DNA of 32,873 nt, taken from positions 1 to 32,873 of the IMG/VR virus record IMGVR_UViG_3300017963_000552; one strand, written 5' to 3'. Numbering within the stretch: the first letter of the stretch is position 1; the number at the start of each line of letters is the position of its first letter. The notes beneath the pieces are model-generated. The model was not told the origin of the DNA, searched no databases, and worked only from the letters and a program-made list of their open reading frames with translations. The position numbers and the translations under genes were made by a program. This document shows positions 24,341 to 28,389 of this stretch, piece by piece. Source of the stretch: a virus.

Positions 24341-25308
24341 GTGTGGACATCGGCGACATCGAGGCCATCCAGATACCGGAGCCGTTCGGCCTATCGCATA
24401 GCGGCGGTAGCGGCTTTCGCATCGGCACGGTGTACGAGTGCCCACGCAAGGCCGCGCTGACCCTACTCGGCTGGACCACAAAGCGGACAGCGTTCTACTT
24501 TGCGTTCGGCACCTTGATCCACCGTCACGCCTTCCGGCCGTACTTGGGCGACGGCGACGTGGACCCGAAAGCGGCGAGGGCCGAGACACAAGACATGGTG
24601 GACACAGAAAAGGCGGTGTCGGCGACCTACGTCGGCATTGACGGCAAAGAGCACACCGAGACGCAAGACATCGCTGTGAAGGCGTCTGACCGCGCCGAGG
24701 CGCCCGTGGTGGCCTCCAACATGATGACGGTATGGAGTGAGGGCCGGTATCCCGATGTGGACGTGACGGCATGCGAGGAGCGCGTGAGGTCACCTGTGCG
24801 CGATCCGGACACAGGGGGGGAGCCAGAGGAGTTCCAGGCGTTCCGAGTGCTCGGGCGTCTCGACATGGTACTGCGCCGTGGCGACGTCTGGGCCGTGCGC
24901 GACTTCAAGACCGCGCGCAGCAAGCTCAAGGCCGAGTGGTTCTCGAATCTCGACTACCACCGCCAGCTCTCGCTCTACCGCTACGCATGGGCGAGCGTGC
25001 GCGGCGAGATCGTGAACGACGTTGGCGCCTACCAGATGACCAAGCACAAGACGCTGAAGGCCGTCCGCGAGAATTCTGGCGAAGTGATCCTTGCGAAGCC
25101 GCTCAGATTCCGGACAATCTACGACGAGGTGACAGGGGCAATCAGACGATTGAGAGAGTGTGAGCGGACCGGGGTGTGGCCCTGCAATCCGTTCTCCTGC
25201 GCGGGCAAGTTTGGGGAACCTTGCCCGTTCATGCCGTTGTGTTGGGCGGACCAGTACGACGATCCGAACGAATGGAAAAAGACCTTGAGGAGAAGGGGGG
25301 AGCCTTGA
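24337..25308 (+). CDS. PD-(D/E)XK nuclease with Cas4/AddB-like cysteines
   Basis: 323 residues. The N-terminus has 'YECPRKAALTLLGW', the RecB-family first Cys and helix, and 'FGTLIHRHAF' with the conserved His. The catalytic core is 'GRLDMVLRRGDVWAVRDFKT': Asp, then D-(F)K. 'DYHRQLSLYRYAW' is the usual QxxxY helix. The end, 'CNPFSCAGKFGEPCPFMPLC', supplies several Cys which with the first could hold a 4Fe-4S cluster as in Cas4/AddB. Such enzymes resect DNA ends for recombination. The next gene, probably its partner, overlaps it as TTGA. Confidence 0.82.
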   Translation: MSVDIGDIEAIQIPEPFGLSHSGGSGFRIGTVYECPRKAALTLLGWTTKRTAFYFAFGTLIHRHAFRPYLGDGDVDPKAARAETQDMVDTEKAVSATYVGIDGKEHTETQDIAVKASDRAEAPVVASNMMTVWSEGRYPDVDVTACEERVRSPVRDPDTGGEPEEFQAFRVLGRLDMVLRRGDVWAVRDFKTARSKLKAEWFSNLDYHRQLSLYRYAWASVRGEIVNDVGAYQMTKHKTLKAVRENSGEVILAKPLRFRTIYDEVTGAIRRLRECERTGVWPCNPFSCAGKFGEPCPFMPLCWADQYDDPNEWKKTLRRRGEP

Positions 25309-26333
25309 CTGACGGGAAGGAAATGGAACTGCGGGAGGGCGACGACTTCGCGCCGGTCCCGGCGGACGATACGCGGATGCAGGTGGAGGCGGCAAAAGAG
25401 ATCGAGGCGGCCTGCATCCTCGCCAAGAAGTTCGAGCGCGACGAGCAGCGCGCGTTCGTCAAGATCATGAACGCATGTGATCGCTACGGCTTCGCGGAGA
25501 ACGCCCTGTACTCGTTCCCGCGTGGCGGGACGAAGGTAGAAGGGCCGTCGATTCAGATGGCCCGGACGCTGGCGCAGGCGTGGGGTAACGTGCGGTGGGG
25601 CACGGAGGTGGTCAGCGATACGCCGAGCACCCGGAAGATTCGTGTCTGGGCCTGGGATATGGAAACGAACACCCGGGTATCGGCCGAGGACGAGTTCGCC
25701 AAGAAGGTCTGGCGCCGAGGCAAGGGCTGGGTCGATATCCTGTTCGACGAGAACGGCAGCGACGATGAGCGGACCCTGCGCGAGCTGACCTACCGCAAGG
25801 CCAGCCTGATCCTGCGCGGGTGCCTTCTCCAGCTCATCCCGCCAGACTACGTTGAGGCGGCCGTGAAGGCGTGTGAGGCGACCCTGCGGCGTGGGCCCGA
25901 CAAGGAGGGTGGCTCCCACGAGGACCGCGTGAGGGCGCTTCTGACGGCCTTCTCGCGGGTCGGTGTGTCCAAGGACATGATCGAGAAGCGGCTGCGGCAC
26001 AAGCTGGAGGCCCTGAGCCCACTTGAGGTGGCCGAGCTTCGCAAGGTCTACAAGTCCATCGAGGACGGCCAGGCCACGGTATCTGAGCACTTCCCGAGCG
26101 TGGAGCTGACGAGCGAGCCCGAAGCGCCGCCGGCGGACGACACGATGGCGGGCGCGCCGAAGACGGCCAAGGAGAAGCTGGTCGCCCGTGTGAACGAGCT
26201 TGCGGACGACAAGGAGATCGGCGACGTTCAGATGGAAGCCATCCTGCAGGAGCAGCTCGACGGCGTGAAGTCGATGGAGCAGTACACAGAGGCCGAGCTG
26301 AAGCGGCTGGTTAAGGCAATCGAGGCAATGTAG
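25305..26333 (+). CDS. Conserved phage protein, possible recombination partner of the nuclease
   Basis: 342 residues from TTG 25305, which overlaps the nuclease stop and has AAGGGGGG just upstream; ATG 25323 is a weaker choice. The core 'QRAFVKIMNACDRYGFAENA', 'YSFPRGGTKVEGPSIQMART', 'VWAWDMETNTRVSAEDEF' and 'TYRKASLILRGCLLQLIPPD' is conserved in many phages and usually left unnamed. Placement directly after a RecB-like nuclease suggests a role in strand annealing or repair, like RecT/Red-beta pairs, but I see no sequence match to those families. The C-terminal ~90 residues are a charged helical tail. Confidence 0.65.
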   Translation: MTDGKEMELREGDDFAPVPADDTRMQVEAAKEIEAACILAKKFERDEQRAFVKIMNACDRYGFAENALYSFPRGGTKVEGPSIQMARTLAQAWGNVRWGTEVVSDTPSTRKIRVWAWDMETNTRVSAEDEFAKKVWRRGKGWVDILFDENGSDDERTLRELTYRKASLILRGCLLQLIPPDYVEAAVKACEATLRRGPDKEGGSHEDRVRALLTAFSRVGVSKDMIEKRLRHKLEALSPLEVAELRKVYKSIEDGQATVSEHFPSVELTSEPEAPPADDTMAGAPKTAKEKLVARVNELADDKEIGDVQMEAILQEQLDGVKSMEQYTEAELKRLVKAIEAM

Positions 26334-26345
26334 GATGACCCACCT

Positions 26346-26409
26346 GGCGCCCGGCCACACCTACGTCTGTCCCTTGCTATCGGCCTACTCTGGCCGTAGG
26401 CTGGGCGCC
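26346..26409 (+). ncRNA. Stem-loop opening the structured intergenic region
   Basis: GGCGCCC (26346-26352) pairs with GGGCGCC (26403-26409), and inside it CCTACG (26360-26365) pairs with CGTAGG (26395-26400). A further small GGCC/GGCC hairpin fits within. The paired arms begin 13 nt after the stop of the upstream gene and end 12 nt before the first tRNA-like module. Confidence 0.55.
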
Positions 26410-26420
26410 TTCTTGAATTT

Positions 26421-26606
26421 GTCCGGGTCGGCATGGTGGGACATGCCCGATACCTCAGCGTACTTGAGGAGCGAAGCCATGGATCGTAAGCCATGGAATC
26501 CGTTGAATGACCATCGAAATTGCCGGGTTAGTGGTCAGCCCTTCGCGGCGACAGGCCGACCGCAAGGGTGCGGAAATGGTGGCCGGTTCGAATCCGGCAC
26601 TCGGAC
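26421..26606 (+). ncRNA. tRNA-like module 1 (about 186 nt)
   Basis: G26421-T26428 pairs with A26599-C26606 in an 8-bp acceptor-like stem (one G-U), including a G-C pair in the G-1:C73 position of tRNAHis. The 3' strand directly follows a perfect T-arm: GCCGG/CCGGC around TTCGAAT (26582-26598). On the 5' side, after CG, is a D-arm-like hairpin GGCATG/CATGCC with loop GTGGGA (26430-26447). Instead of one anticodon arm the interior has several hairpins: CCTCA/TGAGG (7-nt loop, 26453-26469), CCATGG/CCATGG (26477-26496), TGACCA/TGGTCA (26508-26537), and CCGCA/TGCGG (26560-26573). It is preceded by TTGAATTTG (26413-26421). No CCA is encoded. Too long for a tRNA, too short for tmRNA. Confidence 0.55.
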
Positions 26607-26616
26607 TTTTGAATTT

Positions 26617-26731
26617 GTGCGCGGCGGCCGTGGTGGAAGGTGGCGTGTCATGTTCGGTACATGCACACTCCCGCGACCTGCCAAAATCCGGGCGGGTCAA
26701 TAGGGTGCAGGTTCAAATCCTGCCCGCGCAC
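26617..26731 (+). ncRNA. tRNA-like module 2 (about 115 nt)
   Basis: G26617-G26624 pairs perfectly with C26724-C26731 (8 bp, again with G-1:C73). The T-arm GCAGG/CCTGC around TTCAAAT (26707-26723) abuts it. A D-arm-like hairpin follows the 5' strand (GCC/GGC, 26627-26644). Two further hairpins replace the anticodon arm: GTGTCATGT with ACATGCACAC around TCGGT (26645-26668), and GACCTGCC/GGCGGGTC (26675-26698, 8 bp). The same leader TTGAATTTG precedes it (26609-26617). The 5-arm layout and 115-nt length are unlike any standard tRNA. Confidence 0.58.
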
Positions 26732-26804
26732 ACTTTGGATTGGCCGCAGGTCCGGCCGGGATGCGTTCCGGTCGGTGGACAATCCTCCCTGCGGCGCTGG
26801 ATTT

Positions 26805-26866
26805 GGGGCGGTGGTTCGGACAGGCTGGTGTCTGACCGGGGGGCGGTTCGATTCCGTCACGAGCCC
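26805..26866 (+). ncRNA. Possible tRNA-like module 3, minimal form (about 62 nt)
   Basis: The T-arm GGCGG/CCGTC around TTCGATT (26842-26858) is good. A leader like that of the other two, TGGATTTG (26798-26805), precedes it. A hairpin TCGGACA/TGTCTGA with loop GGCTGG (26816-26835) takes the D-arm place. The acceptor-like strands (26805-26812, 26859-26866) pair at only 5 of 8 positions, with an internal 3x3 mismatch, so this module may be degenerate or differently folded. Confidence 0.35.
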
Positions 26867-27033
26867 AGCCGCCCCTCTGTTTTCGACCCCCGACCCGTGG
26901 CAGCGGGTGGTTGGACCGGCACAGTGTCGGTGCGGAGGTGAACGGTGAACCGTGCGTATCAACTGCCGTGATGCGCGTACCGAAGCCGTTTCTGGCGCCG
27001 GGGTGGGGAATCCGGCCGGGGGTCACTTTTCTC
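26867..27033 (+). other. Non-coding structured stretch before the replication promoter
   Basis: I see no convincing gene here. It contains ACCCG/CGGGT around TGGCAG (26893-26908), a 7-bp hairpin ACCGGCA/TGTCGGT around CAG (26915-26931), and the palindrome ACGGT-GA-ACCGT (26942-26953). GGAGG at 26934-26938 precedes an 8-codon frame (GTG 26945), which overlaps another of 26 codons (ATG 26971). Both are too short to claim. Confidence 0.4.
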
Positions 27034-27061
27034 TTGACACGGACGTGGTGACACGTACGAT
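27034..27061 (+). promoter_or_regulatory. Promoter for the replication genes, with inverted repeat
   Basis: TTGACA (27034-27039) and TACGAT (27056-27061) are 16 nt apart. ACGTG (27043-27047) and CACGT (27052-27056) form an inverted repeat inside the spacer, a possible operator. The following 130 nt to the next gene contain only short frames and small hairpins; a 14-codon frame at 27069-27113 lacks a ribosome binding site. Confidence 0.6.
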
Positions 27062-27414: not shown

Positions 27415-28389
27415 GTGGAGCGCGGCTACATCAAGCTGTACCGAAAAGTCGAGGACTCAGCAGTCTGGAGCGAGCCTGAGGCGTTTGACTTTCGGTCGGC
27501 ATGGGTCGACCTGCTGCTGCGGGCGAACCACAGAAAGCGCCGCGCGCTGTTCAGGGGACGCACGATCGTGATCGAACGCGGCCAGGTCTGGACGTCCGAG
27601 AAGAAGCTCGCCGACCGCTGGCGCTGGCACCGCAAGCGAGTACGTCGGTTTCTGAGGGTGCTCGAATTGGAACAGGCCTTGGAACAGGTTTCGGGGCAGC
27701 ACGGAACAATCATAACCATTTGTAATTACGAGACTTATCAAGGCGCCATCGGCAAGCAGGAACAGGACGTGGAACAGGTCCCGGAACAAGCTTGGAACAG
27801 GTCTGGCACACGTCTAAAGAAGGGAAGAAGGTCTTCTTCTGGTTCTGAAGTCCCCTCTGATTCTGAAGATAGTCAGGCTACTGAAGCACAGGAGCAGCAG
27901 CCGAGCCCGGCTGCGCTCGTCGCCAAGATGACCAAGCGGTACACGGATCCTGACCTGATCCGGGAAGTGATCGAGGGCTTCGCGCTGTCCCGCAAGAGCG
28001 GGAAGATGTCGCCGGCCGTGGTGGCCAGGGAGATGGCGAAGTGGGAGAAGTACCCTGTGGCTCGCGTCGAGGAGTGCGCTCGGATCTACACGGACAAGCA
28101 CGCCGACGGTGACAAGGCCGAGGAGTACTTCATGGGCATACTGAGGCGCCAGCGCAAGGATCAGGCCAGCAGCCAAGGCAAGCTGGCGCTCTCAAAGCCC
28201 AACGGCCCGAAGGCCCCGCTGGAGGGCACGCCTGACCAGAACGCGGAGTTTTTGGCCTACGTCGGCACGCTCACCGAGTACGACGAGGACGCGGTGTCGG
28301 CGAAGTACGAGGCCGTGTTCGGCGGGTCGTCGCCGCGCGTCGTGGACGTGTGGGTGGAGAAGCAGGTCAGGGCGAGGGGGAGCACGTGA
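27415..28389 (+). CDS. Phage replisome organizer / replication initiator
   Basis: 324 residues from GTG 27415. The N-terminal ~105 residues match the winged-helix domain of phage replisome organizers: 'GYIKLYRKVEDSAVWSEPEA', 'AWVDLLLRANHRKRR', 'RGQVWTSEKKLADRWRW', 'KRVRRFLRVLELEQALEQV' and 'ITICNYETYQ'. A low-complexity Ser/Gln/Glu linker follows (about 125-165). The C-terminal ~150 residues are helical and DnaD-like in position ('PVARVEECARIYTDKHAD'). Such proteins bind the phage origin and recruit the helicase, which is encoded two genes downstream. The end overlaps the methyltransferase start (GTGA). Confidence 0.82.
   Translation: MERGYIKLYRKVEDSAVWSEPEAFDFRSAWVDLLLRANHRKRRALFRGRTIVIERGQVWTSEKKLADRWRWHRKRVRRFLRVLELEQALEQVSGQHGTIITICNYETYQGAIGKQEQDVEQVPEQAWNRSGTRLKKGRRSSSGSEVPSDSEDSQATEAQEQQPSPAALVAKMTKRYTDPDLIREVIEGFALSRKSGKMSPAVVAREMAKWEKYPVARVEECARIYTDKHADGDKAEEYFMGILRRQRKDQASSQGKLALSKPNGPKAPLEGTPDQNAEFLAYVGTLTEYDEDAVSAKYEAVFGGSSPRVVDVWVEKQVRARGST

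Follow-up and report, generated by a model that had tools for sequence, protein, structure and literature searches.

A phage array of stem-closed RNA modules, two with a tRNA-like outer shell and no anticodon arm, between recT-like and DnaD-like genes

The DNA analysed here, the window, is the 32,873-base IMG/VR virus record G000 (GC 62%), a siphovirus-like fragment of an uncultivated phage. A PHROG search revealed terminase, portal, capsid and tape-measure genes, together with a replication block of recT-like, DnaD-like, methyltransferase and DnaB-like genes. A Lar-like restriction-alleviation protein (phrog_599) is encoded at 1849-2340. The array lies between the recT-like gene, whose reading frame stops 12 nt before the first module and whose best phage relatives are 30-39% identical (some annotated RecT-like), and the DnaD-like gene. 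Since a separate sigma-70-like promoter sequence at 27034-27061 lies ahead of the downstream genes, the array is probably located at the end of the upstream (recT) transcription unit. Codon periodicity is absent from the array region and the third-position GC bias of the flanking genes is missing there; the region is therefore non-coding. The features are as follows.

25176-26333, + strand: recT-like gene (phrog_3657), directly upstream of the array; PHROG match 3e-67
26346-26409, + strand: module m0, stem-closed (GGCGCCC/GGGCGCC), without T-arm; local fold z = -4.2
26410-26420, + strand: spacer 1, TTCTTGAATTT; the next G is G-1 of m1
26421-26606, + strand: module m1, tRNA-shell module of 186 nt; 8-bp acceptor GTCCGGGT/ACTCGGAC with one G-T pair, G-1:C73, multi-hairpin interior
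26430-26447, + strand: D-arm-like hairpin of m1, GGCATG-GTGGGA-CATGCC; pair probability 0.65-1.0
26582-26598, + strand: T-arm of m1, GCCGG-TTCGAAT-CCGGC, 5 bp perfect; probability 0.54 in isolated m1
26607-26616, + strand: spacer 2, TTTTGAATTT
26617-26731, + strand: module m2, tRNA-shell module of 115 nt; 8-bp acceptor GTGCGCGG/CCGCGCAC, all Watson-Crick, G-1:C73; z = -3.3
26645-26668, + strand: hairpin of m2 at the place of the anticodon arm, GTGTCATGTTCGGTACATGCACAC; not a valid anticodon arm
26675-26698, + strand: long variable-arm-like hairpin of m2, GACCTGCC/GGCGGGTC; probability about 1
26707-26723, + strand: T-arm of m2, GCAGG-TTCAAAT-CCTGC, 5 bp perfect; probability about 1
26732-26742, + strand: spacer 3, ACTTTGGATTG
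26743-26795, + strand: module m2b, stem-closed (GCCGCAGG/CCTGCGGC) with an inner 10-bp hairpin, without T-arm; stem probability about 1 in every context
26796-26804, + strand: spacer 4, GCTGGATTT
26805-26875, + strand: module m3, stem GGGGCGG/CCGCCCC, containing a T-arm motif (26842-26858); then TCTGTTTT, a possible terminator
27034-27061, + strand: sigma-70-like promoter TTGACA-16-TACGAT, 10 of 12 consensus positions, ahead of the downstream replication genes
27415-28389, + strand: DnaD-like helicase loader gene, downstream of the array; PHROG match 2.5e-31

Five stem-closed modules (m0, m1, m2, m2b and m3) are thus separated by four spacers, which are the sole AT-rich stretches of the array. 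Spacer copies with two or fewer mismatches to TTTGGATTTG are found on the + strand at 26412, 26608, 26734 and 26796. At this stringency 11 sites match on both strands of the window, and these four lie on one strand within 395 nt, exactly at module borders. The initial annotation had described three tRNA-like modules with a common leader. The leader was confirmed, as TTGAATTTG is present in the window only at 26413 and 26609, each time ending on the G that opens the acceptor stem, and two extra stem-closed modules without a T-arm (26346-26409 and 26743-26795) and two extra spacer copies were added to it. The tRNA likeness held for m1 and m2 but not for m3, whose T-arm has a folding probability of 0.03 and is therefore not counted as tRNA-like; its outer stem is 10 nt away from the T-arm. 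Neither m0 nor m2b is tRNA-like.

Three GGTTCRANYCC T-arm motifs (26585, 26710 and 26845) are present in the window and none elsewhere in it, in agreement with the three T-arms originally proposed. In a strict shell search, we required a 5-bp T-stem closed by G-C, a TTCRANN loop, an abutting 7-nt strand and its complement 60-260 nt upstream. Exactly two matches, m1 and m2, were obtained in the window, and none in 200 dinucleotide-preserving shuffles. In both modules a G-C pair before the acceptor brings it to 8 bp, so that the 8-bp stems abutting the T-arms (modules of 186 and 115 nt) and the G-1:C73 pairs predicted from the first inspection are all present. The D-arm-like hairpin assigned to every module is clear in m1 (GGCATG/CATGCC), weak in m2 and absent from m3. 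CCA is not encoded in the modules. The spacer, acceptor and D-region of m1 and m2 are alike beyond 300 shuffles and their interiors are not alike; m1 and m2 are a common shell with different contents. The RNA array with its two tRNA-shell modules is real and statistically secure.

The two shells differ in how they fold. In m2, the acceptor, T-arm and variable-arm-like helices had a probability of about 1 in every folding context, apart from the innermost acceptor pair (0.32). When m1 was folded alone, the acceptor probability was near 1 and that of the T-arm about 0.54. Over the whole array, a global fold is more stable than the modular one by about 10 kcal/mol and out-competes the m1 shell; m1 would therefore need to fold as it is made, or to be cut.

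The array was originally thought to be neither tRNA, tmRNA nor any named phage RNA, and the scans agree. ARAGORN called no tRNA and no tmRNA in the window, and no Rfam family, including tmRNA (RF00023), GOLLD and ROOL, was matched in it at curated cut-offs. At lax cut-offs, tRNA-Sec and mascRNA were the best sub-threshold matches of the array (15-18 bits vs cut-offs of 42-47), and the others were unrelated chance families. The tRNA covariance model (RF00005) reached at best 17.2 bits in the window, against the 29 bits required. The 7-bp acceptor abutting a 5-bp T-stem with a TTCRANY loop, as in this family, was found in m1 and m2 and not in m3, and the 5-bp anticodon stem with a 7-nt loop, U33 and purine 37 was found in neither m1 nor m2. 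No anticodon arm was detected in these two modules under strict or relaxed rules, nor a split arm flanking a removable insert, a test that does detect the arm in a tRNA-Leu used as control. The proposed absence of a single anticodon arm was therefore upheld for m1 and m2, and the description as tRNA mimics, not ordinary tRNAs, applies to these two and is not supported for m3.

Several known RNAs resemble the modules in part. Bacterial tRNA-Sec, the best sub-threshold Rfam clan match of the array, and allo-tRNAs share with m1 and m2 an 8-bp acceptor on a 5-bp T-stem (13 bp) and a long variable arm. However, the modules have no anticodon arm, carry C73 and score 15-18 bits where 47 are required; in the tRNA-Sec test (RF01852, at least 47 bits with a UCA anticodon) the scores were 17.8 and 15.1 bits. 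Like tRNA-His and the minihelix substrates of HisRS, m1 and m2 have a G-1:C73 pair on a 13-bp acceptor/T stack, although they possess neither a GUG anticodon nor an encoded CCA and their interior is expanded. The clustering, the short AT-rich spacers and the likely common processing recall the phage tRNA arrays of mycobacteriophages and T4-like phages, from which the array differs in having modules without a decoding arm, with interiors as long as about 135 nt, that ARAGORN and Rfam do not see. The mascRNA (the MALAT1 3' tRNA-like RNA) is likewise a tRNA-shaped, non-decoding element at a transcript 3' end, cut by RNase P and RNase Z, but it is eukaryotic and not homologous, and m3 scored only 18.6 bits. 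GOLLD and ROOL are also structured RNAs of phages and occur next to tRNA genes, but neither has a match in the window at gathering score, and both were rejected for the modules, as was tmRNA, for which there was neither a model match nor an ARAGORN call. Bacterial Y RNAs (YrlA) are non-coding RNAs with a tRNA-like T-arm domain, in which the domain order is permuted, the T-arm preceding the acceptor 5' strand, and which have a Ro60-binding stem. In the present array, by contrast, each module is bracketed by its acceptor strands as in an ordinary tRNA, with the 5' strand upstream of its own T-arm, and there is no Rfam match; a YrlA-type permutation was therefore rejected.

What m1 and m2 do carry is the shell for tRNA-maturing enzymes (the 13-bp acceptor/T-arm stack, the T-loop and G-1:C73). 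With this outer shell and no anticodon arm, they probably undergo tRNA-like maturation without decoding. Our preferred reading, which we put forward tentatively, is that the array may give rise to non-decoding tRNA-like RNAs (m1 and m2) that are cut from the recT-side transcript and occupy tRNA-binding host proteins. The transcript would enter the array from the recT side, an RNase E-type enzyme would cut the single-stranded spacers and RNase P would cut at the G-1 junctions, leaving stable non-decoding tRNA-like RNAs. The RNase E core, RN|WUU (PMC5222698), is present in all four spacers, and nine of the ten RN|WUU sites of the array are located in or beside spacers, a clustering that is partly compositional because the spacers are the sole AT-rich stretches. 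RNase P accepts RNAs presenting an acceptor/T-arm stack (PMC4919913), and HisRS charges 13-bp minihelices with G-1:C73 (PMC9976931); the ideas of a HisRS decoy and of RNase P cleavage would both be consistent with these published minimal substrates. A course from spacer cutting through RNase P trimming to a stable non-decoding RNA would likewise follow from established enzymology. RNase E and a G-1:C73-type HisRS may, however, be absent from the host.

The liberated RNAs would occupy host proteins that hold tRNAs by the elbow or the acceptor end, with HisRS as the best-fitting candidate. It is known that phage tRNAs counteract defences that cleave tRNAs (PMC11555353, PMC10264068), but the tRNAs concerned are decoding ones. 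Because an anticodon change abolished rescue by a phage tRNA (PMC11555353), modules that have no anticodon are unlikely to act as decoys for anticodon nucleases, and competition for proteins that bind the elbow or the acceptor is a better guess, although a guess all the same. Should these RNAs be made, phages would possess tRNA-shaped molecules that escape the standard tRNA finders and are unable to decode. Some phage tRNA genes would then be decoys or scaffolds instead of decoders, which touches on the question of why phages carry tRNA genes, and a simple scan, a T-arm abutting a distant acceptor partner, would be available for finding the class.

The main rival, a serious one even if we consider it somewhat unlikely, is that the modules are relics of a former phage tRNA array, now in decay, whose anticodon and variable regions have been broken up by insertions or rearrangement. 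Phages readily gain and lose tRNA genes, odd tRNA-like fragments are present on other phage contigs, and m3 and the modules without a T-arm resemble progressive loss. However, every one of the 16 acceptor pairs and 10 T-stem pairs of m1 and m2 is intact (one is G-T), no anticodon-arm halves are left flanking an insert, and the four spacers are still near-identical.

It is also conceivable, at a distinctly low probability, that the modules serve only as processing punctuation or 3'-end protection, defining and stabilising recT-side mRNA ends, and that the liberated RNAs have no function in trans. The position of the array between the recT frame and the separate downstream promoter, the RNase E-type cores in the spacers and the GC-rich stem of m3 followed by TCTGTTTT fit such a role, and tRNA-shaped ends define and stabilise transcripts elsewhere. 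A single hairpin would do for this purpose, however, and two elaborate G-1:C73 modules are left unexplained.

That the modules are unusual but translation-competent tRNAs, either class-II-like with enlarged anticodon and variable arms or carrying small spliced introns, is quite improbable. Although m2 follows the class-II order (acceptor, D, hairpin, long variable arm, T48, T-arm), its sole anticodon-like loop (TTCGGTA) has a pyrimidine at position 37, and the strict, relaxed and split-arm tests were negative in both modules. When introns were allowed, ARAGORN called m1 as tRNA-Ala(GGC) with a 95-nt intron; this call was rejected since its anticodon stem is mismatched.

Chance folding in a GC-rich intergenic region is very improbable: high GC does favour stable folds, and several other 116-nt windows reach z <= -3, but none of the 200 shuffles yielded even one such shell and the four spacers fall at module borders. 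Copies of tRNA 3' ends are common in phage att sites, yet an attP-type integration site built of such ends is equally hard to credit here, since the acceptors and T-stems differ among the three copies, m1 and m2 have full 5' acceptor strands, and no integrase is among the scanned proteins of the window, the record being a fragment.

Relatives of the array were sought by protein and by DNA pattern. The recT protein queries returned only relatives of 46% identity or less, and the DnaD and DnaB queries no close relatives. In IMG/VR and GTDB genomes, the spacer, T-arm and D-region patterns hit nothing beyond chance matches and ordinary tRNA clusters, and BLAST of the array against phages gave only 28-35-base scraps, several of them in tRNA genes. 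No close relative was thus found by these searches, which does not imply uniqueness, as the collections may omit near-identical records.

The structural scan was then applied to all fetched phage loci (numbered L), most of which had been fetched with the T-arm pattern, so that prevalence cannot be read from it. Of 55 ARAGORN-negative T-arms in the window and these loci, six have an 8-bp acceptor at 95-260 nt, where 0.86 were expected from permuted acceptor strands. Two of the six are m1 and m2 themselves. Two others, still included in this count, were rejected as clean expanded shells, L034 because it is a duplicate of a tRNA 3' end and L071 because it has an anticodon arm. This leaves L016 and L040. 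The wider proposition, that some phages encode enlarged tRNA-shell RNAs that do not decode, are matured by the tRNA enzymes of the host and bear unrelated structured cargo on one common shell, and that those described here are HisRS-type (G-1:C73) mimics sequestering, or charged by, a host tRNA-binding protein, is in our view doubtful.

Among distant recT relatives, odd tRNA shells are present at L219:4701-4838 (138 nt, with a tRNA-Leu-like D-arm) and L237:5827-5908. Directly after another recT relative, L003:6056-6179 is an RNA-like element of ~125 nt with a closing stem of 9-10 bp (GGGCAGTGG/CCACTGCCC), hairpins and a poor T-loop. A recT-linked tRNA-like element common to the recT relatives was rejected, since only these three of about 16 records have one and they share no sequence homology.

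Other unusual elements were encountered in the fetched loci. L047:1-516 is a ROOL RNA (244.7 bits), followed at 765-890 by a 126-nt expanded tRNA-like element that passes the tRNA cut-off (34 bits) and is not called by ARAGORN. In a tRNA cluster, the 82-nt element L067:375-456 scores 47.4 bits with the full-length tmRNA model (RF00023; cut-off 47) although it lacks the mRNA and pseudoknot domain altogether; of this phage tmRNA only the tRNA-like domain is left. In L253-L254 (record G006, about 39520-39700), a tRNA-Leu(UAG)-like 5' half (GGGGGAC...CTGTTTTTAGGAAACAG) lies downstream of the matching 3' half (...GGTTCGAATCC...GTCCCCC), as if circularly permuted or rearranged, and three copies of GTTGTTATAG are nearby. 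Finally, L027:11908-12015 and L032:11235-11342 contain a perfect tRNA T-arm and acceptor 3' strand within an apparent protein-coding frame, which is lytic-transglycosylase-like by eye; this element is possibly an att-type tRNA copy.
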